64,000 nt of DNA from a virus: IMG/VR virus record IMGVR_UViG_3300046787_000130, positions 1 to 64,000 of that record; one strand, 5' to 3'. Position 1 is the first letter of the stretch, and every line of letters starts with the position of its first letter. The translations under genes were made by a program, and so were the position numbers. This document shows, piece by piece, positions 11,015 through 60,809 of this stretch. The notes under the pieces were generated by a model that did no database searches, was not told where the DNA came from, and saw only the letters and a program-made list of their open reading frames with translations.

Positions 11015-11246
11015 AACTTTAAAGTCTATTCCCGTTGATAAGGCATTTCACTTTATTGGCGGTTGGGCACTTGTTGCTACATTGTATCCATACTTCCCAG
11101 TATTCTCTTTCATTGCAGTAATTGCGGTTGCTGCTTGGAAGGAATGGGATGATGGCAATGGTCACGGAACCCGAGACTTTTGGGATTTCCTAGTGACTGT
11201 TGGCGGTGGTGCTGGTGCAGCACTAGTGCATACAATTTTGAATTAA
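10986..11246 (+). CDS. Small integral membrane protein, 86 aa
   Basis: ATG 10986, inside the end of the preceding gene, gives MRDIAVDIRETLKSIPVDKA. A hydrophobic hairpin (WALVATLYPYFPVFSFIAVIAV), then AAWKEWDDGNGHGTRDFWDFLVT and a final Gly/Ala helix follow. The arrangement of His after DKA, KEWxD and DFWDF resembles small bacterial membrane proteins of the YfiM/DUF2279 kind (HF...KExxD...DxxD), which is a family resemblance rather than an assignment. It ends directly before the tmRNA acceptor piece. Confidence 0.65.
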   Translation: MRDIAVDIRETLKSIPVDKAFHFIGGWALVATLYPYFPVFSFIAVIAVAAWKEWDDGNGHGTRDFWDFLVTVGGGAGAALVHTILN

Positions 11247-11541
11247 TGGTAGTAAACCTTTAACTAAAGGCATCTTGGACGGGGGTGCGATTCCCCCCAT
11301 CTCCACCAAACAACAGAACCCCCAACGCCTCTCATCGATGCGCACCATGGGGGTCACTTTGGGGATGACCAGTTTCGACAGGGTGAGTAATAACCTAGAG
11401 GCTACCAGTGAGGCGACTGACTTAATCAGCGCAAAAAAAGTAAATGCAAACGATAGCAATTACGAAATGAGAATCGCCGCCTAATAACGGTATGACTCTC
11501 GGGGTGTTTGGCGGTTTGACCTGGCAACAGAATCAAACCGC
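11247..11541 (+). ncRNA. ssrA: Circularly permuted (two-piece) tmRNA
   Basis: The 3' acceptor half comes first. A T arm GGGGG (11281-11285), 7-base loop TGCGATT and CCCCC (11293-11297) lead into CATCTCC, A and an encoded CCA (11306-11308). After a 52-base spacer the 5' half begins GGGGATG (11361-11367), then AGTTTCGAC. GGGGATG pairs with CATCTCC over 7 bp, with G-U as the third pair, the alanine identity element. AGGGTG (11380-11385) pairs with CATCTT (11271-11276), and CTACC (11402-11406) with GGTAG (11248-11252), giving the P2 helix. After an A-rich run, GCA at 11446 opens a tag frame reading ANDSNYEMRIAA and ends TAATAA (11482-11487). A perfect 9-bp hairpin (11511-11519/11533-11541) closes the coding piece. 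tmRNA rescues stalled ribosomes. Confidence 0.9.
11309..11360 (+). other. Intervening segment between tmRNA pieces
   Basis: These 52 bases separate the CCA of the acceptor piece from the GGGG of the coding piece and would be removed in maturation. CCCCC (11319-11323) and GGGGG (11349-11353) can pair across it, bringing the two cut sites together, as in other permuted tmRNA precursors. Confidence 0.6.
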
Positions 11542-11566
11542 TACTTTTCAACTACAGAGAGAAAGA

Positions 11567-11776
11567 ATGGATAATCAAAAGTTAGTAGCATACGCGCAGG
11601 TTGGATTGAGCGCACTATTCATTATTGGTTATTTCACTATTCTCATGATGTTCCTTACTGGGAATGTTTCTGTTTCCTTAGAGTGGAAAGACACCATTGC
11701 TGCATTGTTTGGTGTCGTTACTGCGGGCGTTGGAGTCATTCTAGCATACTGGTTCGCTAGACAACGCCCTGCCTAA
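11567..11776 (+). CDS. Holin-like membrane protein, 69 aa
   Basis: ATG 11567 (MDNQKLVAYAQVG) is chosen; the frame is open further upstream, but that part is the tmRNA coding piece. Two hydrophobic helices (VGLSALFIIGYFTILMMFLT and IAALFGVVTAGVGVILAYWF) are joined by a short SVSLEWKD turn, with a basic ARQRPA end. This class II holin-like topology, followed 12 bases later by a cell-wall hydrolase, indicates a lysis cassette. No holin family is matched by sequence, so the call rests on topology and context. Confidence 0.65.
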   Translation: MDNQKLVAYAQVGLSALFIIGYFTILMMFLTGNVSVSLEWKDTIAALFGVVTAGVGVILAYWFARQRPA

Positions 11777-11788
11777 CTGAGGTATATT

Positions 11789-12382
11789 ATGAAGTCTGTT
11801 GCGTTAAACGCACTTGATATGGTGCGTATGTGTGTCTTTTTGTTTATTTTTTCAGGCATGTTATTCTTTGCCAATGAGTTGTACCAAGCCAAGGTTCGAT
11901 ATGATAACCTTGAATATGAATTGTACAACAATCAAAAATCAGCCGATGAAATCATTCATGACTTGCGCAAGAAGTTGTCTCATGTTGATTTTGTGCGTAC
12001 AGAAACTGAATGCCTAGCCAAGAACATTTACTTTGAAGCAAATACAGAATCAGTAGAAGGTAAGTTGGCTGTTGCCACTGTAACTATGAATCGGGTTCAA
12101 AGTCGCATCTTCCCTCGTACTGTTTGCGGAGTTGTTCTTGATAGAAGTAGCAGAGGTTGTCAATTCTCTTGGGTATGTGATGGCAAGACTGATATCGTGC
12201 GTGACCGGCGCGGATATTTTGAATCGGTAAAAATTGCCGAAGAAGTTTTGCTTTCCAACAAACGTTCGCGTATAATAACCTCTGATGTTCTCTATTACCA
12301 TGCTGACTATGTTGAGCCAACGTGGGCTAAGACTATGAAGTTGTTTACAAAAATTGGTGCTCACCTATTCTATAGGAAATAA
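11789..12382 (+). CDS. SleB-type cell-wall hydrolase (endolysin) with N-terminal membrane anchor
   Basis: TGAGGTATATT precedes the ATG. The product has 197 residues. Residues ~12-30 (RMCVFLFIFSGMLFFANEL) form a membrane anchor or signal-arrest segment, ~31-65 a linker helix, and ~73-195 the Hydrolase_2/SleB fold. ECLAKNIYFEANTE holds the conserved catalytic Glu region, CQFSWVCDG is the usual Q-F-S-W core, and YYHADYVEPTWAK is the signature near the end. SleB-family enzymes cleave peptidoglycan glycan strands. A hydrolase held in the inner membrane and then released is a known endolysin strategy; the holin-like gene just before supports this. Confidence 0.87.
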   Translation: MKSVALNALDMVRMCVFLFIFSGMLFFANELYQAKVRYDNLEYELYNNQKSADEIIHDLRKKLSHVDFVRTETECLAKNIYFEANTESVEGKLAVATVTMNRVQSRIFPRTVCGVVLDRSSRGCQFSWVCDGKTDIVRDRRGYFESVKIAEEVLLSNKRSRIITSDVLYYHADYVEPTWAKTMKLFTKIGAHLFYRK

Positions 12383-12385
12383 ATT

Positions 12386-13411
12386 ATGACCTCAAAATTC
12401 TACAGTAATCAAGAAATGCTAGACTACTCTGACGTGCTAATTGTACCATGCGCAGGAGATGTTTCTAGTCGCAGTGAAGTTGACTTGACAACTGGCGCAG
12501 GAGTGGTTCCAATCATTGCTGCTAACATGGATGGTGTTGGTACATTTGAAATGGCACGGGCACTTGCTAAGCATAAGATGCTAACTGCTCTTGTCAAGCA
12601 CTATAGCCTTGAGGAACTGATTGAATTCTTTAAGGAAGATGATTCCCGATTTGCTTTCTATAGCATGGGCATTAGCAATGAAGATATTGCCAAGTATCAT
12701 GATTTTATTGATGCTGTAAATGCAGAGCAAACCAATGTTCCTTTTGGCGTTTGTATTGACGTTGCTAATGGCTATACTGAAAACTTCCTAGACAAACTTG
12801 ACCAAATCGTTGATATCTGCCCCAGTATGTTCTACATGGCAGGTAATGTTGTCACCCCAGAACAAGTTTATGCTCTATCTCAAAAGGGCATCGACATCAT
12901 CAAGGTTGGTATTGGTCCTGGTTCTGTTTGCACTACTCGCAAGATGACTGGTGTAGGCTTTCCTCAGTTCTCTGCGGTTCTTGATTGTGCAAAGACTGGC
13001 ATTGGTACTTGCGCTGATGGCGGTATCACTTGCGCTGGTGATGTTGCTAAGGGATTTGGCGCTGGTGCATCATATGTTATGATTGGTGGTATGTTTGCTG
13101 GTCATGAGGAAGGATTGCCGTCTGAGCATAAAGATAAGGTTGAATACATGAGCAATGTTCCTTTCTATGGGATGGCGTCAAAAGCCGCTCAAGAATTGCA
13201 CAATGGCGGTGTTGCTGACTATCGTGCATCTGAGGGTAAGGAAGTCATTCTCAAGTACAAGGGTCCAGTTGAAAAGACTGTGCAAGAAATTCTTGGTGGT
13301 CTGCGGTCTGCTTGTACATATGTTGGCGCAAGAAATTTGTATGAATTGGCAGAGAATTCGCAGTTCATTCGCGTCAACCGTCAACTCAATAACGTATTTG
13401 GAGTTAGTTAA
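12386..13411 (+). CDS. guaC: GMP reductase
   Basis: The product has 341 residues, the usual size for GMP reductase and without the CBS domains of IMP dehydrogenase. KVGIGPGSVCTTRKMTGVG holds the catalytic Cys182. CADGGITCAGDVAKGFGAGA and MIGGMFAGHEE are phosphate-binding and nucleotide-binding segments of the IMPDH/GMPR barrel. GPVEKTVQEILGGLRSACTY is the conserved C-terminal part, all close to bacterial GuaC. The enzyme converts GMP to IMP with NADPH. In an infection it would shift guanine nucleotides toward IMP and adenine nucleotides. It starts 3 bases after the endolysin, and its stop overlaps the gp33 ATG (TAATG). Confidence 0.93.
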   Translation: MTSKFYSNQEMLDYSDVLIVPCAGDVSSRSEVDLTTGAGVVPIIAANMDGVGTFEMARALAKHKMLTALVKHYSLEELIEFFKEDDSRFAFYSMGISNEDIAKYHDFIDAVNAEQTNVPFGVCIDVANGYTENFLDKLDQIVDICPSMFYMAGNVVTPEQVYALSQKGIDIIKVGIGPGSVCTTRKMTGVGFPQFSAVLDCAKTGIGTCADGGITCAGDVAKGFGAGASYVMIGGMFAGHEEGLPSEHKDKVEYMSNVPFYGMASKAAQELHNGGVADYRASEGKEVILKYKGPVEKTVQEILGGLRSACTYVGARNLYELAENSQFIRVNRQLNNVFGVS

Positions 13412-47416: not shown

Positions 47417-50400
47417 ATGACAATAAACGTTTCAACAATAATCGGAGCAAACATACCAGCAGGTGCGCAAGGTGTTCAAGGCGCTACTGGTAACCAAGGT
47501 TTGCAAGGTTCCGGTGCGCAGGGCGCAACTGGTTCTCAAGGCGCGCAAGGTTTACAAGGGTCTGGCGCTCAAGGTTCTCAGGGCGCACAAGGTCTTCAAG
47601 GTTCCGGTTCTCAAGGAACTCAAGGACTACAAGGCGTTCAAGGTCTACAAGGTCTACAAGGTTTACAAGGGTCTGGCGCCCAAGGAACTACAGGTAGCCA
47701 AGGCACTACGGGTTTTCAAGGCGTTCAGGGTTCTCAAGGACTACAAGGCAACCAAGGCGTTCAGGGTTCTCAAGGACTACAAGGCAACCAAGGCGCTCAG
47801 GGTTCTCAAGGACTACAAGGTTTACAAGGTCTTCAAGGCTTACAAGGTCGCCAAGGACCACAAGGTTCTCAAGGCTTAACTGGCAATCAAGGCTCCCAAG
47901 GTTCTCAGGGTGCAACTGGTAACCAAGGTGCTCAAGGTTCAGGAAGTCAAGGTTCTCAAGGAACTCAAGGCGCTCAAGGCTTAGGTTCTCAAGGTACTCA
48001 AGGTCCAGCAGGAACAGCATCATCTCAAGGTTCTCAAGGAACTCAAGGCACTCAGGGTACACAAGGTTCAGGTTCTCAAGGTACTCAAGGTCCAGCAGGA
48101 ACAGCATCATCTCAAGGTTCTCAAGGAACTCAAGGCACTCAGGGTACACAAGGTTCAGGTTCTCAAGGCACTACGGGTTCTACTGGTAATCAGGGTGCGC
48201 AAGGAACTCAAGGCTTAACTGGCAATCAAGGTGCTCAGGGTTCGCAAGGGTTAACTGGTAACCAAGGTACTACCGGCACTACGGGTTCTCAAGGCGCACA
48301 AGGTCTTCAAGGCAACCAAGGCGCTCAGGGTTTACAAGGAACGCAAGGCGTACAAGGACCACAGGGATTAACTGGCAACCAAGGTACTACAGGCACTACG
48401 GGTTCTCAAGGCGCTCAAGGTTCTCAAGGCAACCAAGGTGCTCAGGGTTCCCAAGGACCGCAAGGTACGCAAGGATTACAAGGCGCGCAAGGTTTACAGG
48501 GCACTCAAGGTCTTCAAGGCAACCAAGGTACTCAGGGTCTTCAAGGTCTTCAAGGTCGCTTAGGTTCTCAAGGCGCTCAAGGTTCCCAGGGACCACAAGG
48601 CGTGCAGGGTCTACAAGGCAACCAAGGCGCTCAAGGTCTTCAGGGTATTCAAGGCGCGCAAGGCGCATTAGGTGTTCAAGGTACTCAAGGCGCAGATGCA
48701 GGTTATACGGCTATTGCCGCTGCTACCGGCGACGTACATGGGGTTGTAAGCAGAAGCGCAGCAACACTATCCTTTAATGATGGTACAAGACAGTTTACAA
48801 TTGCGCCAGTATCTGGCTCTTGGACATTCTATCATAAGGGTGTGCTACACACTATCAGCACCTCTTTGTCAATAACGATTGCCAATACTTCTGGCGCAAG
48901 ATTTATTCGTATTGACCCTAACACCGATACTCTTGTTGAAGGCGGGTCTGTTCCTGACTTTAAGAATGATACTATCGTTGCATACATTTACTACAATGCT
49001 GCAACTGGTAAGGGTTTAATTCTTGGTGATGAACGTCACGGATTTGAACGTGATACAACATGGCACTCAAATCAACATCTAAACGTAGGAACAATCTGGC
49101 GTTCTGGCGGTACGATATCATACACATTAGCAGATGATACTGCTGTTAATATCGGAGTTGGAACACCACTTCTAATTGCTGACGAAGATTTGTTGCATAC
49201 AATTACCCACTCAGCATCTCCATCAGCTGACTATGAACAGATTCTAACGACATCTGCATCATTGCAAGTATTGTATCTTGATGGTAATGGTTACTATGCT
49301 AACACTGCACCAAGTACAACTCCATGGGTTGCTGGTACATCTCTAGCAAGATACAATTCAGTATCAGCAGGATTAGGTTCTCTAGTAGATGCAACTGAAG
49401 GTGAGTATATCACTTACTGGTTGATTGCAACTAATGACACTAGAAATCCTGTTAAGTTGGTAATGGGTCGCGCATCACACGCAAGTATTGATGATGCTTA
49501 CGCTGAAGAATTCCAAGAGTATGGATTGTCATTTGCTGAACAGGTATTCATGTACCAGATTGTTCTGCAAACAAGTTCAGCATTTACTAACAATACACCT
49601 AGAGTAGAGATTGCTGCTGTTCGTAAGGTGCTAAGCAAGTTAGCAACTTCAGCATCTACTGTAACTGCTTCTTCACACGGAAGTTTGACTGGTCGCGATT
49701 CCGCAGACCAGCACCCAACTTCTGCGATTACAGGACTAGACTCTACATTAACTAGCATCTATACTGCGGCAAACGGTGCTGCTAATGCTGTTATGGTATC
49801 GGCTAACAGTGGTTCTACTCTAGCAGGCAAGCAACTAAACTTTGTCAATACATCTACAATTCTTGTTTCTGTTGGAGCAGGAACTGGTAGCAACGCAAAT
49901 ATCTCCTTTACAGTAGATAACACTAATCCTGCACTACTTGGTCCGCAAGGTGTTCAGGGTGTCCAAGGAACACAAGGATTACAAGGTTTACAAGGCGCAG
50001 AAGGACCACCTCCTGCCACTACAACATATACTGCACAGTCAATATCTTTGACAGATGGCGTTTATGTTTCTGGCGCTTTGTCTGACATTCAAACATTTAA
50101 TGATGGTAACCAATACATTCTAACTGACGGTTCAACCGCCGGACCAGCATGGATTGTTACTGTTGGATTTACTGGTGTTACATCCTTCAATCAAGTTGAT
50201 TTGAATATTGCATATACTCAATCTTCCGGTCACACTATCTATATCCAATTATGGAATTACAATACTTCTACTTATGATAACATTGGTTACTATAATGGTC
50301 TTGGCGGATATCAACAATTCCAACTTGGCGTAATCTCTTATACCAATTACATTAGCGGCGGCGCTGTAACTGTAAGATTGTACCACAGCAATACCGGTAA

Positions 50401-52024
50401 TCCTGCGCACCAAACAAATATTGACTTTGTTGCTATCTTAGATACGCCAGCTGGTGGTCAGGGTCTAAGAGGACTACAAGGTACTACTGGTTCTCAAGGT
50501 GCTCAGGGCTTACAAGGAACGCAAGGTAATCAAGGTCTTCAAGGTTTAACTGGCTCTACAGGTTCTCAGGGTTCCCAAGGCGCTCAAGGCAACCAAGGAT
50601 TGCAGGGACTACAAGGACTTCAGGGACGTCAAGGTCCACAGGGACCACAGGGATTACAAGGACTAACTGGCTCTCAGGGTTCCCAAGGTGCTCAAGGACT
50701 AATCGGTACTACGGGCAATCAAGGCGCTCAAGGCACTCAGGGCTTAACTGGTAACCAAGGTGCTCAGGGTACTATTGGTACAACTGGCTCTCAAGGTTCT
50801 CAAGGTACAACTGGTTCTACTGGTAATCAGGGTGCGCAAGGAACTCAGGGCGCTCAAGGTTTACAGGGTCTTCAAGGTTTACAAGGACTAATCGGTACTA
50901 CGGGCAATCAAGGTGCTCAAGGCGCTCAGGGTAATCAAGGACTACAAGGATTACAAGGCGCTCAGGGTAATCAAGGGCTTCAGGGGTTACAGGGGTTACA
51001 GGGACGCCAAGGACCGCAAGGTTCACAAGGGCTACAAGGATTAACTGGCAATCAGGGTGCTCAAGGTTCTCAAGGTACTACTGGTAGCCAAGGTGCACAA
51101 GGCACTCAGGGATTACAGGGTCTTCAGGGTTCAGGCGCTCAGGGGTTACAAGGATTACAAGGTTTAATTGGTACTACGGGCAATCAGGGTGCTCAAGGTT
51201 CTCAAGGTTTGCAAGGCTTAACTGGTGTTGGTAGTCAAGGCGCTCAAGGTACTCAAGGACCACAAGGACTTCAAGGATTGCAGGGTTCTGGCGCGCAAGG
51301 TTCTACTGGTACTACAGGCTCTCAGGGTTCTCAAGGTGCTCAGGGTCTAACTGGTACTGGTAGCCAAGGTTCTCAAGGTCCACAAGGATTACAGGGACTT
51401 CAAGGTTTACAGGGATTACAGGGACTCCAAGGTCTAACTGGTACTGGTAGCCAAGGTTCTCAAGGTCCACAAGGATTACAGGGTTTACAAGGACTACAAG
51501 GCAACCAAGGGCTACAAGGTCTACAGGGACTACAAGGTCGCCAAGGACCACAGGGTCCACAAGGCTTACAGGGATTAACTGGTACTGGTAGCCAAGGTTC
51601 TCAAGGTCCACAAGGCTTGCAAGGTCTACAAGGTCTTACTGGTTCTGGTTCTCAGGGCGCTCAAGGTGCTACTGGTGGTGGCGGCGGTGGCGCAACATAC
51701 TTCACCTTTGGTGGTACAGGAACACCAACAACAGGCACAGACAAGACGCCATATCTTCTCGTGCCAGGAACTCTAACTGCATCATTAGGTAGTTTGGTTG
51801 CTAAGACGGCTCCTAGTGGCGGCAGTTTTACTGCATCAGTACTAAAATCTTCTGACAATGGTGCAACTTTCCCATCTACTGTAGCATATGTTGAAGTGAC
51901 AACTGGTAACAAGGTAAACACTAATACAACAACAATGTCTCTTGCATCTGGTGATTTATTAAGACTAGATATATCTGCGGTTAATGGCGCAGCAGATTGG
52001 ACATTTACGGTATCCTCATCATGA
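47417..52024 (+). CDS. Collagen-like fibre protein 3 (1535 aa)
   Basis: A short N terminus ([17 protein letters not shown]) leads into ~135 collagen triplets (about residues 15-428), nearly all Gly-X-Gln. A middle domain (about 430-845) begins [20 protein letters not shown] and has a beta-rich core with [18 protein letters not shown]-like segments. A short collagen link, a second beta domain (about 867-1013, jelly-roll-like [20 protein letters not shown]) and a second collagen block (about 1014-1420) follow. The end is a small beta domain ([20 protein letters not shown]). Such rods are long trimeric fibres. The DNA is highly repetitive. Its stop overlaps the next ATG. Confidence 0.83.
47462..48695 (+). 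repeat. Collagen-type DNA repeat block, fibre 3 first rod
   Basis: 9-base GGT/GGC-NNN-CAA units in continuous tandem, with longer near-identical subrepeats such as the [20 protein letters not shown] unit occurring twice (48015-48075 and 48105-48160). Such DNA is prone to unequal recombination, which would change rod length. Confidence 0.85.
50458..51670 (+). repeat. Collagen-type DNA repeat block, fibre 3 second rod
   Basis: A second tandem block of Gly-X-Gln codons, with repeated segments such as [20 protein letters not shown] at about 50605 and 51525. It is separated from the first block by two globular domains. Confidence 0.82.
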
Positions 52025-54260: not shown

Positions 54261-57200
54261 ATGGCAGATTTTCCAGCTGGTCCATATAACGGTCAAACCT
54301 TTACTGCTGATGACAGTACCATTTGGACATGGAACGGATACGCATGGAAGGCAACTGGCTGGTCCGGAACTGGCGGCAGTTCTCAAGGCGTACAAGGTAC
54401 ACAAGGTGCTCAAGGTTCCGGAAGTCAAGGCGTACAAGGTTCTCAGGGACTTCAAGGTTCTGGTGCCCAAGGTTCTACTGGTAATCAAGGCGTACAAGGT
54501 TCTCAGGGACTTCAAGGTTTACAAGGCGCTCAAGGGTTAGGTTCCCAAGGCGCTCAAGGTCCAGCAGGCGCTGCATCATCTCAAGGTGCTCAGGGCGCAC
54601 AAGGGTTAGGTTCCCAAGGCGCTCAGGGTCTTCAAGGTATTCAGGGTTTGCAAGGTCTTCAAGGGTTTGGTGCTCAGGGTACGCAAGGTGTTCAGGGTCT
54701 AACTGGACCTATTGCAGGTAGCAACAAACAACTTATCTTTAATGACGGTGGCACTGCTCAAGGCGTAACTACCCTAACATATGAAAAGTCAAACACTACA
54801 CTGTTCTATACTGGCAATGTAGTATATAATGGTACTACACCAAACATTGCATTTAGAAACGGTTCTAGCACCGAAATCTTAATGAGAATGTATCCGCAGT
54901 CTAACGGAACATTGTCTTTTGAAGGTAATGCTGGTCAATTATTCTCTATTACAAACGATTTAACTGGCTCTATATTTTCAGTTAATGACGTATCTGGTAT
55001 TCCTTCTATTGAAGTGTTTGCTAATGGCGTCATAGAACTTGCGCGTTATAATGGTAACGTCAGACTAGGCAATCTTGCTGTAACATATGAATCGTCAAAC
55101 AACACTACCATCTATTCAAGTAATGTTGTATACACTAGCAATATTGTAGACTTACCAACTGTTACTGTAACTGGTAATTATACTGTAACAGAAAACACTG
55201 CTGGTAAACTTATTATTGTTAACAACGGTTCATCAGATGTAACAATCACCTTCAATTCTGCTGCTACTGCCGGATTTGCTACTAGCGTATTCCGTAAGGG
55301 TACAGGTAACGTAACGATTGCAACTGGTGCTGGTGTTACCAAAATTAACTCAGCCAGTTTCATCTCTAGTAACATTGCAGCAACTAATGCTACTGCAACA
55401 ATTGTATACTCTGCTACAAATGAAATATTATTACTAGGTGACATTCAGACTAATGGTATTGGCGGACCTCAAGGCGTTCAAGGCGTACAGGGTCTACAAG
55501 GTGTTCAGGGTTTTGGTGGCACTTCAGGCGGTACTGGCTCACAAGGTTCTCAGGGCACGCAGGGTTCACAAGGAACTCAAGGCTTACAAGGCAACCAAGG
55601 TGCTCAAGGTAATCAGGGACTACAAGGTTTACAAGGTCTACAGGGTCGCCAAGGACCACAAGGACCACAAGGGTTGCAAGGACTTCAAGGAACACAAGGC
55701 TTAACTGGACCAATAGCAGGGTCTACAACCCAATTTATTTACAATGATGGCGGTGTTGCTCAAGGCACTAATACAGTAAATTACTACCGCGCTAATACCA
55801 CGATGGTATCAACTGGTAATGTTGTATTTACTGGTAACATTGTTGACTTGCCCACTGTTACTGTAACTGGTAATTATACTGTAACAGAAAACACTGCTGG
55901 TAAGTTGATTATCGTTAACAATGGCGTATCAGATGTAACCATTACATTTAACTCTGCTGCTACTGCCGGATTTGCTACCAGCGTATTCCGTAAGGGTACT
56001 GGTAATGTAACCATCGCAGCAGGCGCTGGTGTCACTAAGATTAATTCGGCTTCCTTTATTTCAAGTAATATTGCGGCAACTAATGCTACAGCAACTGTAG
56101 TTTACTCAGCAACTAACGAAATACTATTGCTTGGTGACATTCAAACTAATGGTATTGGTGGACCTCAAGGAACACAAGGTGTTCAGGGTTTACAAGGCGT
56201 TCAGGGTTTTGGTGGCACTTCAGGTGGAACTGGTTCACAAGGTTCTCAGGGTACTCAAGGCTTACAAGGAACTCAAGGTCTACAAGGATTGCAGGGACTA
56301 CAGGGACTTCAAGGTCGTCAAGGCGTTCAGGGTCCACAAGGACCACAAGGGTTACAGGGATTACAGGGTCTACAAGGAAACCAAGGAGCGACTGGTCCGT
56401 CTACTGCAATCAATGCTACACTAACAACTGGCGGTACAAACTATCGTCTAGTTGGCGTTTCAGCAACTGGCTCAAACCAAACACCATTTGCAAACAATTC
56501 AGTATACATTAACGGTGAAGTTCTTACTGCAACAAATCTAACCGCAACACGTATCACTAATGTATATCAAGCCGCAGGTGACGTAAGAACTAATCTTGGC
56601 GCACCATCAGTAGAAGAAAGTGCAATCTTTGACGGAATGTTTAGCAATAAGTTTAGATTCATTGCTCCAACAACGCAAGAAGAATCTAGCGACGGGACAA
56701 CTTGGGTATCTTCTTCTAGAGCAACTGCAACTCAGTTAGCCGATATGATGATTGGTGGCGGGCAAACAACATCATTTAATATTATTCCAGGTGGAACAAT
56801 TGGTGTTGCAGATTATTACAGACTAACTTGGGATGTAACGGCAACAACGTCGTATGTTTTCTTAAACCATTTCTATGCGTATATGTCTACGCAAGGAAAC
56901 ACGCTTACCTTTACCATCGAAGCATTTAACAATACAACTGCGACGTGGTCAACTCTTGCTACCGGTACTGGTTCTTCTTGGCCAGGGCATCACAGCATTA
57001 AGCACACTACTGTTGCTTACAATTCTGGCACGGGTTCTGCATCATATTGCGATAAGGTGAGAGTAACATTCTCCACTACAAGAGCGACAGTTAATTCTAT
57101 AATTCTTGGTGGCATAGAGTGGTTTGGTGGATATCCTGCTGGCAGAAGAACTGTAGAGTCTTACGACAGATACAAGAATATCACTCTTGCTAACGGCATG

Positions 57201-60200
57201 TTCGTAACAGGGTCTACTGCCAACGTCGGTATCAATACAGGAAGTCCAACAGAAAAATTACATGTTGTTGGCAACATTAATGTAACCGGACGAGTTCAAT
57301 CTCCAACTTCAACATACTACTTTGATGCCACTAATGGTAATGCTAATTTTACGAACGCATACTTTGCAAACTGGTATGGTGCAGATTCTGTATTAAGAAT
57401 AGTAGCAGCATCAGGAAGAACTTATTTTCCTGATACAGCAGGTAATGTCGGTATTGGTACTACAACGCCAACTTACACTCTTGACATTGGCGGTTCACTC
57501 AGAGCAAGCGGCAATGTTAATTTTACAAGCAATATTGTTGACCTTCCTTCGGTAACAGTTACAGGCAACTATACTGTAACTGAAAATACCGCCGGTAAGA
57601 TTATCATTGTTAACAACGGTGCATCAGACGCTACAATTACCTTTAATCCTGCAATAACAGCCGGGTTTGCGACATCGGTATTCCGTAAGGGTACTGGCAA
57701 TGTTATAATTGCTGCTGGTGCTGGTGTTACTAAAATTAACAGCGCATCTTTCATTAGCGGCAACATTGCAATTGCTAATGCTACAGCAACTGTTGTATAT
57801 TCAGCAACCAATGAAATTATTCTCCTTGGTGATATTCAAACTAATGGTATTACTGGACCTCAAGGAACGCAAGGTGTTCAGGGCGTACAGGGTCTACAAG
57901 GTGTTCAGGGTTTCGGTGGCACTTCAGGCGGTACTGGCTCACAAGGTTCTCAGGGCGTTCAGGGTACGCAAGGTCTACAAGGCAATCAAGGATTACAGGG
58001 TTTGCAGGGACGTCAAGGCGTTCAAGGACCACAAGGCTTACAGGGTCTTCAAGGTAATCAAGGTCCACAGGGACCACAGGGCTTACAGGGACTTCAAGGC
58101 GTCCAAGGACCGCAAGGATTACAAGGTCTTCAAGGCTTACAGGGCTTGCAAGGTCTGCAGGGACTTCAAGGTCGTCAAGGTGTTCAGGGTCCACAAGGAC
58201 TTCAAGGTTTGCAAGGCGTCCAAGGCTTAACTGGACCAATAGCAGGGTCTACTACCCAATTCATCTATAACGATGGCGGTGTTGCTCAAGGCACTAATAC
58301 AGTAAACTATTATCGTGCTAACACTACGATGGTATCAACTGGTAATGTTGTATTTACTAGTAACATTGTTGACTTGCCTACTTTAACCATTACATCTAGT
58401 TCATCATTTAGTGATAACGTTGCCGGTAAACTTATCATTGTCAACAATGGTGTATCTGATGTGACGTTAACATTTGCAACTGCCTTGGAAGACGGTTTTG
58501 CTACATCAGTGTTTCGCAAAGGAACCGGTAATGTAACCATTGCTGCCGGCGCTGGTGTTACAAAGATTAATTCTGCATCATTCATTAGCGGTAACATTGC
58601 GGCAACAAATGCAACGGCAACAATTGTATACTCTGCTACAAATGAAATATTGCTACTTGGTGACATTCAGACTAATGGTATTGGTGGACCTCAAGGTACT
58701 CAGGGCACTCAAGGCGTCCAAGGTTTTGGTGGCAGTTCAGGCGGCACTGGCACGCAAGGCTCTCAAGGAACTCAAGGTCTGCAAGGATTGCAAGGCGCTC
58801 AAGGTCTACAAGGCTTGCAAGGTCTACAAGGCTTGCAAGGTCTACAAGGTTTGCAAGGACGCCAAGGCGTTCAAGGACCACAAGGATTGCAAGGTATTTT
58901 GGGTCCACAGGGACTCCAAGGATTGCAAGGTCTACAAGGAACGCAAGGATTAGGTTCTCAGGGTCCACAAGGTGCAACTGGTCCTTCAACCCTATTAAAC
59001 GCTACTGCAACAACTGGTGGTACAAATTATTACGTTGTTGGCGTAGCCGCAACAGGTAGCAATCAAACTCCAACTGCCAATACATTATTATCATTTAATG
59101 GTGCAAACGTTGGTATTGGCACAACGTCGGCTGCAGCAAGACTTGATGTTAAGTCTGATGTTCTAGCAGGAACTCACGTTGCCCGAAACATGACAATTTG
59201 GCGCGACATTTATAATGGTGGCGGTAATGGTCAAGACCTTGTATTAAACTCTTTGACTAGTGGCGGCGCTTTTGCTGGATGGAATTTCTCTGCTGACTGG
59301 GATGGTAGACTATCGTTTGGTGCATGGTCTGGTACTACGTTTAATACAACACCAAATGAATTTCTCGTCATTCGTCCTAATGGTAATATTGGTATTGGTA
59401 CAATTTCGCCAACATATAAACTAGATGTACAAAATACTGCCACCCAATTAGCGCAGTTTATGTATGCTGATGGTACATACAATCCTAGAGTACAAATTAC
59501 AGGTTCTGCTGATGGTATCACGTTTAACGAAACGTATACAACACTTGCATCTAACCTTATGTTCTCTATTGCCGGTAGCGAAAAGGTTCGCCTCACTAGT
59601 GGTGGCAATTTAGGTATCGGCACTACTTCTCCTGCTGGCGCATTAGAAGTAATGAATGGCGGTAATCTCTACGTTCGTAGCAGTAAAGCGGCTAGTGCAA
59701 TTTCAGGAGGAAGATTACTTTTTGGAGCATATACCGGAAATCCATTTACAGGCGTATATGGATATGGAGATAGCGCAGATAATCAGGTACTGATAGGTGG
59801 TGGTACATCTGTAGGCGAACCTGCATCTGTTATTAGATTTTTTACTGGAACTATTGGAACTACGAGTACTGGCACAGAACGCGCAAGATTTGATATTAAT
59901 GGTAACTTGGTTATCGGCACATCATCTACGTTATCTAAACTACAAACTACAGGTGCAGCTGCGACAACTTCACCAACTAGCGGAAGTGCCGGAGGTTCTG
60001 GATTATACGTTACAAATGTTGACCCTGCTTATGGCATGATGTTTGGTGTTGCCGGTTCAGGCAAAGGCTGGATACAGCAGCAACGTTCAGATGGAACAGG
60101 TACTCAGTACGATTTGTCAATAAATCCAATTGGCGGTAATGTTGCTATAGGAACAACTTCATATTATGATGCAACGCTTACGCTACTAAAGACTTCTGGT

Positions 60201-60809
60201 AATTTTGTATTTGATATTGTAAACGGCACAGAAGCAGGATTTAAACTTCGCACATTTAATCATGGCAGTGCAACGCTTCAAGATAAAGTATTTACTACAG
60301 GTTTGTATTATGGCACTACGGAAAATGCATCTGTAAGATACAATAGAGGTGGTGGCGGTACTGACGGTTTCTTAACTTTTGCTACTAATGGTTCTGAACA
60401 AGTAAGAATTACTGCAGCAGGAAATCTTGGTGTCGGTACTAGCACTCCTGCATACAAACTAGAAGTTAATGGTTCATTTGCTGCTACAACCAAGTCATTC
60501 GTAATTCCTCACCCAACTAAGCCTGATAAGAAGTTGCGTTATGCATCTCTTGAAGGACCAGAAAATGGCGTGTATATTCGTGGTAGAGAGCAAACAACCA
60601 CCATCCAACTTCCTGACTACTGGGAAGCACTGGTTGATATGAACAGCATTACAGTTAACCTAACTCCAGTTGGACACTTCCAGACGCTTTCTGTTGTTGC
60701 TATATCTAATACGCATATTACGATTGGTTCTTCGCATGATGAGGTAGATTACTACTACACCGTATATGCTGAACGTAAGGATGTAGAGAAACTGCAGGTG
60801 GAAATCTAA
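54261..60809 (+). CDS. Giant collagen-like fibre protein 4 (2182 aa)
   Basis: The start (MADFPAGPYNGQTFTADDST) is followed by WTWNGYAWKATGW. Five collagen blocks (about residues 40-153, 402-485, 633-713, 1199-1323, 1476-1575) alternate with globular domains. A ~110-residue beta module (NIVDLPTVTVTGNYTVTENT, then AGKLIIVNNG and [15 protein letters not shown]) occurs four times and a PIAGSTTQFIYNDGG linker three times. Later, VGIGTTTPTYTLDIGG-like motifs recur. The C-terminal ~120 residues (FVIPHPTKPDKKLRYASLEG, then PENGVYIRGRE and YTVYAERKDVEKLQVEI) are a conserved fibre-end domain of T4-like phages. It is likely a trimeric long tail fibre with the receptor end in the final domains. Confidence 0.85.
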   Translation: MADFPAGPYNGQTFTADDSTIWTWNGYAWKATGWSGTGGSSQGVQGTQGAQGSGSQGVQGSQGLQGSGAQGSTGNQGVQGSQGLQGLQGAQGLGSQGAQGPAGAASSQGAQGAQGLGSQGAQGLQGIQGLQGLQGFGAQGTQGVQGLTGPIAGSNKQLIFNDGGTAQGVTTLTYEKSNTTLFYTGNVVYNGTTPNIAFRNGSSTEILMRMYPQSNGTLSFEGNAGQLFSITNDLTGSIFSVNDVSGIPSIEVFANGVIELARYNGNVRLGNLAVTYESSNNTTIYSSNVVYTSNIVDLPTVTVTGNYTVTENTAGKLIIVNNGSSDVTITFNSAATAGFATSVFRKGTGNVTIATGAGVTKINSASFISSNIAATNATATIVYSATNEILLLGDIQTNGIGGPQGVQGVQGLQGVQGFGGTSGGTGSQGSQGTQGSQGTQGLQGNQGAQGNQGLQGLQGLQGRQGPQGPQGLQGLQGTQGLTGPIAGSTTQFIYNDGGVAQGTNTVNYYRANTTMVSTGNVVFTGNIVDLPTVTVTGNYTVTENTAGKLIIVNNGVSDVTITFNSAATAGFATSVFRKGTGNVTIAAGAGVTKINSASFISSNIAATNATATVVYSATNEILLLGDIQTNGIGGPQGTQGVQGLQGVQGFGGTSGGTGSQGSQGTQGLQGTQGLQGLQGLQGLQGRQGVQGPQGPQGLQGLQGLQGNQGATGPSTAINATLTTGGTNYRLVGVSATGSNQTPFANNSVYINGEVLTATNLTATRITNVYQAAGDVRTNLGAPSVEESAIFDGMFSNKFRFIAPTTQEESSDGTTWVSSSRATATQLADMMIGGGQTTSFNIIPGGTIGVADYYRLTWDVTATTSYVFLNHFYAYMSTQGNTLTFTIEAFNNTTATWSTLATGTGSSWPGHHSIKHTTVAYNSGTGSASYCDKVRVTFSTTRATVNSIILGGIEWFGGYPAGRRTVESYDRYKNITLANGMFVTGSTANVGINTGSPTEKLHVVGNINVTGRVQSPTSTYYFDATNGNANFTNAYFANWYGADSVLRIVAASGRTYFPDTAGNVGIGTTTPTYTLDIGGSLRASGNVNFTSNIVDLPSVTVTGNYTVTENTAGKIIIVNNGASDATITFNPAITAGFATSVFRKGTGNVIIAAGAGVTKINSASFISGNIAIANATATVVYSATNEIILLGDIQTNGITGPQGTQGVQGVQGLQGVQGFGGTSGGTGSQGSQGVQGTQGLQGNQGLQGLQGRQGVQGPQGLQGLQGNQGPQGPQGLQGLQGVQGPQGLQGLQGLQGLQGLQGLQGRQGVQGPQGLQGLQGVQGLTGPIAGSTTQFIYNDGGVAQGTNTVNYYRANTTMVSTGNVVFTSNIVDLPTLTITSSSSFSDNVAGKLIIVNNGVSDVTLTFATALEDGFATSVFRKGTGNVTIAAGAGVTKINSASFISGNIAATNATATIVYSATNEILLLGDIQTNGIGGPQGTQGTQGVQGFGGSSGGTGTQGSQGTQGLQGLQGAQGLQGLQGLQGLQGLQGLQGRQGVQGPQGLQGILGPQGLQGLQGLQGTQGLGSQGPQGATGPSTLLNATATTGGTNYYVVGVAATGSNQTPTANTLLSFNGANVGIGTTSAAARLDVKSDVLAGTHVARNMTIWRDIYNGGGNGQDLVLNSLTSGGAFAGWNFSADWDGRLSFGAWSGTTFNTTPNEFLVIRPNGNIGIGTISPTYKLDVQNTATQLAQFMYADGTYNPRVQITGSADGITFNETYTTLASNLMFSIAGSEKVRLTSGGNLGIGTTSPAGALEVMNGGNLYVRSSKAASAISGGRLLFGAYTGNPFTGVYGYGDSADNQVLIGGGTSVGEPASVIRFFTGTIGTTSTGTERARFDINGNLVIGTSSTLSKLQTTGAAATTSPTSGSAGGSGLYVTNVDPAYGMMFGVAGSGKGWIQQQRSDGTGTQYDLSINPIGGNVAIGTTSYYDATLTLLKTSGNFVFDIVNGTEAGFKLRTFNHGSATLQDKVFTTGLYYGTTENASVRYNRGGGGTDGFLTFATNGSEQVRITAAGNLGVGTSTPAYKLEVNGSFAATTKSFVIPHPTKPDKKLRYASLEGPENGVYIRGREQTTTIQLPDYWEALVDMNSITVNLTPVGHFQTLSVVAISNTHITIGSSHDEVDYYYTVYAERKDVEKLQVEI
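55143..55475 (+). repeat. Fibre beta-module, copy 1 of 4 in the giant gene
   Basis: Encodes NIVDLPTVTVTGNYTVTENT to [10 protein letters not shown]. Further copies begin near 55837, 57535 and 58366, with a fifth in the gene at 62930 and a more diverged one ending the gene at 40974. DNA identity is high between the first two copies and lower in the fourth (ITSSSSFSDNVAGKLIIVNN). Confidence 0.85.

Follow-up and report, generated by a model that had tools for sequence, protein, structure and literature searches.

An orphan abiF RNA in the spacer of a permuted phage tmRNA gene: a candidate decoy antitoxin against host AbiF

Introduction

AbiF, a HEPN ribonuclease with single-stranded RNA as its substrate, has been proposed as the ancestor of Cas13 (PMC12737573). 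RCd22, the abiF RNA of C. difficile, binds the AbiF toxin there and neutralises it both in cis and in trans; its stems are needed for this (PMC12373285). A comparable activity encoded by a phage has been demonstrated experimentally for a different toxin: the pseudo-ToxI RNA of phage PhiTE mimics the ToxIN antitoxin, and the phage thereby escapes abortive infection (PMC3475682). Among phage tmRNA genes, 53 two-piece tmRNAs have been counted (PMC9004378), and tmRNA_permuted is a family in Rfam (PMC11915505). Permuted phage tmRNAs, phage abiF RNAs and phage mimics of antitoxin RNAs are each already known.

The stretch of DNA considered here (the window, 64,000 nucleotides) comprises positions 1-64,000 of a 161,237-bp virus record (IMGVR_UViG_3300046787_000130). 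A preliminary description, made from its letters, had read a permuted, two-piece tmRNA gene of a T4-like phage in it and had named ARAGORN and the Rfam covariance models as the means of checking this.

Results

Both checks returned strong matches to a permuted tmRNA with the acceptor half first. ARAGORN called a permuted tmRNA at 11216-11575 with the tag ANDSNYEMRIAA, and found no other tRNA or tmRNA over the window. An Rfam covariance scan matched RF04321 at about 11248-11541 (137.8 bits, E = 6e-27, cut-off 47) and RF01850 on the same stretch (126.2 bits, E = 5e-38, cut-off 84). The alignments to these two families, ARAGORN and the sequence itself place the 3' (acceptor) half at 11248-11308 on the plus strand, ahead of the 5' half; it consists of a P2 strand, the T arm (GGGGG/CCCCC), the acceptor strand, the discriminator A and an encoded CCA, and terminates in CATCTCC-A-CCA. 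The 5' half (11361-11541, plus strand, 3' limit approximate; sequence, ARAGORN, Rfam) starts with GGGGATG and comprises the mRNA-like part together with a terminal hairpin. Between them the halves form a 7-bp acceptor stem with a G-U third pair, and P2 pairs GGTAG with CTACC. The tag frame ANDSNYEMRIAA (11446-11481) followed by TAATAA (11482-11487) corresponds to the coding part given by ARAGORN (11446-11487, plus strand). Coordinates, halves, stems and tag frame thus all agree with the preliminary description. The 52 nt between the CCA end and GGGGATG (11309-11360, plus strand) form the spacer, which is expected to be excised during maturation. Judging from the gene, cleavage into two pieces, charging with alanine and use in trans-translation are predicted for this tmRNA.

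The assignment to a T4-like phage was also borne out. The baseplate protein is nearest to those of phage Melnitz (43% identity) and Pelagibacter phage HTVC008M (40%), which infect Methylophilales and Pelagibacter, respectively, and which both have a permuted tmRNA. The view that such a gene is unusual in a T4-like myovirus did not hold: cases in phages have been published, the T4-like Stenotrophomonas Menderavirus has an annotated two-piece tmRNA, and three pattern scans of IMG/VR yielded permuted tmRNAs in 163 viral loci, or 164 with the window. In Melnitz (L311, around 1501-1833), the tmRNA spacer is long and holds an open frame that starts with MFKWLSKTRLVVITRDYF after GGAG. The glutamine riboswitch of Melnitz was considered as spacer content and rejected, as it lies downstream of the tmRNA.

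A lysis cassette had been proposed beside the tmRNA, of which one gene is supported by family matches. Downstream, on the plus strand, a cell wall hydrolase or endolysin family protein is encoded at 11789-12382 (PF07486, E = 4e-24; PHROG endolysin, E = 7e-21), while the 69-aa hydrophobic protein translated from 11567-11776 (plus strand) is holin-like by appearance only, with no family match above cut-off. Further along the window, the product of 12386-13411 belongs to the IMP dehydrogenase / GMP reductase family (PF00478, E = 5e-60), and the proteins encoded at 47417-52024 and 54261-60809 are very long, contain many GxQG repeats of collagen-like type and are probably tail fibres.

The most informative element of the locus had been overlooked: an abiF RNA that lies wholly within the 52-nt spacer. 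It is the third Rfam match (RF03085 at 11319-11354, plus strand, 41.5 bits, gathering score 37). In the RF03085 alignment, an outer stem (11319-11324/11348-11353) and an inner stem (11326-11328/11340-11342) enclose the loop CUCUCAUCGAU (11329-11339), and the bulge CACCA (11343-11347) separates the two stems on the 3' side, all on the plus strand. The element has the features of an abiF RNA, namely an outer stem of 6-7 bp, an inner stem of 3 bp, CA in the bulge and a score above the Rfam cut-off, and for each of the ten stem pairs in the model it keeps that pair or an equivalent one. A chance match was rejected: the E-value for the whole 161-kb record is 2e-7, and abiF RNAs above the cut-off are rare in Burkholderiales (9 of 300 genomes).

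For comparison with RNAs that accompany a toxin gene we used a covariance model (R1) built solely from 19 bacterial AbiF-linked RNAs of equal length (alignment A2), a restriction made because variation in bulge length mis-registered the 3' stem in a MAFFT alignment of 35 bacterial RNAs (A1). The training RNAs covary, with 98% of cells paired and six pairs changed on both sides, while slid controls all stayed below 50% paired. Model R1 matched the window spacer at 11314-11358 with 46.1 bits (E = 5e-10 in 524 kb), far above everything else in the surrounding kilobase. A second model (R2) consisted of R1 and four Burkholderiales RNAs, among them L319 and L321, which have no AbiF gene in the stretch examined. 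By a count made by eye, 33 of 35 hairpin bases are common to the window RNA and the RNA upstream of the AbiF gene in L207.

Ten of the eleven loop letters match CUCUCAACGAU, the loop of most AbiF-linked RNAs; among Burkholderiales RNAs, loops vary. The differing letter turns CAACGAU into CAUCGAU, a variant absent from all other stem-bearing viral sites and from the AbiF-linked RNAs compared. The element falls within Rfam's definition of an abiF RNA, with a question mark over this one loop letter, which leaves any toxin partner putative and makes decay of the copy possible.

The spacer element differs from a complete AbiF system in lacking the toxin. A profile search with PF07751 (Abi_2) gave no match in the window's 161-kb record or in those of L162, L167, L288, L289 and L143. 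Because the toxin gene is missing from its record, the window element is an abiF-family RNA and not an AbiF toxin-antitoxin system. The same distinction separates viral from bacterial loci in general. A scan for the conserved loop across bacterial genomes yielded 120 loci, 119 of them usable; 67 of the 119 had an Abi_2-family gene (family checked against Pfam) within 2.5 kb, placed directly downstream in the same orientation in 66 cases. None of 119 viral contig loci with a loop match had such a gene nearby. Whole viral records likewise contained no Abi_2 gene (0/35 and 0/11), an absence that need not hold for every virus, as many viral contigs are fragments. The viral RNAs are not chance matches, since a perfect 6-bp outer stem is present at 58 of 105 non-redundant viral sites versus 1.3 expected from shuffled flanks, and since R1 matched most of the first 100 viral loci at E ≤ 0.01. 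Lactococcal phage sk1, in which Rince and colleagues are said to have described an AbiF-protective region in 2000, gave no match with model R2. Two loci, one in a viral contig (L048, 2900-2995) and one in a Burkholderiales genome (L322, 1497-1695), have abiF RNAs in tandem whose loops differ, an arrangement reminiscent of RCd22 with its two motifs.

The content of the spacer is exchanged among relatives of the window. L289, which is 88% identical over 1.5 kb, has the same tmRNA with a spacer of 4 nt. In L288 (85% identical) the spacer measures about 95 nt, is unrelated to that of the window and contains a possible frame of 26 codons. This frame, MKKLKEKFLTFIEMLAEALKGVGQSL, has AAAGG upstream, ends at the 5' half and lies just before GTTTCGAC near 2582; L288 is on the same contig as L396. 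Further possible mini-ORFs were seen in the spacers of L338 and L405, which are related to each other, and of L365. The spacers of L292 and L293 hold an unrelated long hairpin. No other Rfam family was found in the spacers of relatives, and a SNORD26 match in L162 was below its cut-off and dismissed as noise.

Including the window, abiF-like spacers recur in four of the 164 permuted phage tmRNAs, and the remaining spacers gave no abiF-like match. The spacer of L162 scored 26.7 bits with model R1 (E = 2e-4); weaker matches came from model R2, with 24.9 bits for L143 (E = 4e-4) and 20.9 bits for L167 (E = 6e-3). The L162 loop CUCUUCUUGAAA resembles CUCUGCUUGCAA of the AbiF-linked L323; the L143 loop CUCUUGACAAU resembles CUCUUAACAAU of L319 and CUCUUAAUAAU of the AbiF-linked L320; and the L167 loop CUAUCAAAGAA has CUAUC and GAA in common with one RNA of L322. 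These differing loops would fit adaptation to different toxins. Model matches of 24-34 nt in other tmRNA loci were set aside: none falls in a spacer, and they resemble hairpins of terminators. Spacers of bacterial ssrA genes were rejected as a source: a pattern with the abiF loop placed after an encoded CTCCACCA end was found in none of 399 Burkholderiales genomes.

Phage abiF RNAs are also found next to tRNA genes. Twenty-six of 95 stem-bearing viral sites lie within 10 nt of a tRNA gene on the same strand, versus 1.25 expected and a maximum of 5 in 1000 trials of random placement in the same loci. One group of related phages dominates this count (21 of the 26 sites), and 6 of 54 sequence clusters show the adjacency. 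Most of these RNAs are 5' leaders, and three follow a CCA end. Cyanophage S-CREM1 has its abiF RNA between two tRNA genes. In L024 and L029 the order is CCA (or tRNA end), AACAGAACCC, abiF RNA, similar to CCA, AACAACAGAACCC, abiF RNA in the window. Among bacterial abiF sites, 1 of 108 is tRNA-adjacent. This copy (L267, 3335-3380, minus strand) is flanked by tRNA-Trp and tRNA-Phe, lacks a neighbouring Abi_2 gene and may be phage-derived. In L458 (8076-8143) and L459 (12642-12709), both on the minus strand, an abiF-like RNA directly follows a one-piece tmRNA and is itself followed by tRNA-Ser; the match of these two loci to the permuted pattern was due to chance, as ARAGORN calls the tmRNA one-piece. 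The simplest reading of the adjacency is that tRNA-type maturation cuts the phage abiF RNA free.

Finally, the end of the tag varies within the group. In the close relatives L288, L289 and L293 the tag ends in ALAA, while in the window (11446-11481) and in Menderavirus it ends in RIAA, which for the window appears to be a local change relative to its closest relatives. Of 161 phage tags, 119 end in LAA, 14 in IAA and 4 in RIAA; an RIAA end is uncommon, IAA ends are not. With these numbers and the ALAA of the closest relatives, the suggestion that RIAA lets tagged peptides escape ClpXP is unsupported.

Discussion

This permuted phage tmRNA gene carries an orphan abiF RNA in its spacer, and we consider it fairly probable that this RNA is freed by processing and acts as a decoy antitoxin against a host AbiF. 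The tmRNA precursor would be transcribed as a single RNA. As in other permuted tmRNAs, host tRNA-processing enzymes would trim the CCA end at 11308 and RNase P would cut before 11361, setting the 52-nt spacer free as a small hairpin RNA. This hairpin would then bind the host AbiF HEPN ribonuclease in the manner of its cognate antitoxin RNA, and abortive infection would be blocked or delayed, to the benefit of the phage. The tmRNA would in turn rescue ribosomes stalled on mRNAs that the toxin had already cut, so that one transcript would supply both antidote and repair. A tmRNA would be a sensible partner because an mRNA-cutting RNase is expected to leave stalled ribosomes for tmRNA rescue.

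Alternatively, the gene may be an ordinary two-piece tmRNA whose spacer hairpin aids folding or processing of the precursor, a stable hairpin having been recruited with no toxin binding involved. Some stem-loop is present in many permuted phage spacers, and the structure predicted for the entire precursor includes the spacer hairpin. However, the antitoxin family is matched in the letters of loop and bulge and not in stems alone, the relative L289 manages with a 4-nt spacer and no hairpin, and other phages have the same RNA beside ordinary tRNAs or standing alone. We therefore regard this alternative as unlikely.

Likewise improbable is a reading in which the abiF RNA has no function today: a chance copy, taken from a host or some other phage into an insert-tolerant spacer, and now neutral or in decay. 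Spacer content does turn over fast among close relatives, and one loop letter is off the consensus, but the RNA retains 10 of 11 loop letters and each of the model's ten stem pairs or an equivalent, and similar elements occupy three other permuted tmRNA spacers and sites at many tRNA genes. We give very little weight to a third possibility, that the RNA triggers AbiF, works against competing phages or prophages that bear AbiF, or binds a phage protein. Prophages also carry AbiF systems (PMC12373285) and the RNA could have a partner not found here; yet the abiF RNAs known so far act as inhibitors of their toxin (PMC12373285, PMC12737573), and the phages in question are without an Abi_2 gene. 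That the RIAA tag is the main point of the tmRNA, letting tagged proteins evade host ClpXP, is hardly credible, for although the tag differs from the relatives' ALAA and recurs in Menderavirus, 14 of the 161 phage tags end in IAA and the abiF RNA would be left unexplained.

More tentatively, the decoy model might extend beyond this locus: maturation of tRNAs and tmRNAs could be a general route by which phages release decoy antitoxin RNAs, with the spacer as a swappable cargo slot (holding several abiF loop types, mini-ORFs or nothing) and a single transcript providing both the antidote to an RNase defence and the RNA that rescues ribosomes. We hold this wider proposal to be possible, though not the likelier outcome. 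If decoy action holds, the locus would be of high interest. Should antitoxin RNAs for AbiF, the proposed Cas13 ancestor (PMC12737573), indeed be released by phages from precursors of tmRNAs and tRNAs, they would be a natural counter-defence against this toxin. Such release would also offer a reason why phage abiF RNAs adjoin tRNA genes, and would give a purpose to a part of permuted tmRNA genes usually regarded as waste. A literature search, with preprints and most subscription journals outside its scope, revealed no abiF RNA in a tmRNA gene, no exchangeable spacer and no tie between phage abiF RNAs and tRNAs.

Compared with known systems, the tmRNAs of Melnitz (PMC9004378) and Menderavirus (RF04321 / RF01850) are like that of the window in gene order, acceptor stem, T arm, CCA, tag frame and T4-like carriers, but their spacers hold other sequence instead of an abiF RNA. 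The type III-like abiF RNA/AbiF systems (RF03085; RCd22-AbiFCd, PMC12373285; AbiFr, PMC12737573) share with the window RNA the hairpin architecture, the letters of loop and bulge and the pattern of stem covariation; the window RNA differs in having no toxin gene in its record, in its position inside a tmRNA gene and in one changed loop letter. The abiF sRNA of cyanophage S-CREM1 (PMC9964418) is likewise an orphan in a T4-like phage and lies directly beside tRNA genes; unlike that of the window it is outside a tmRNA gene, and its authors assigned no mechanism to it (PMC9964418). Pseudo-ToxI of PhiTE concerns another toxin family and another RNA fold, is built of tandem repeats and has no tie to tmRNA or tRNA processing. 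It nevertheless offers an experimental precedent for the proposed decoy: in PhiTE (PMC3475682), as in the window, a phage RNA resembles a host antitoxin RNA while the toxin gene is absent.
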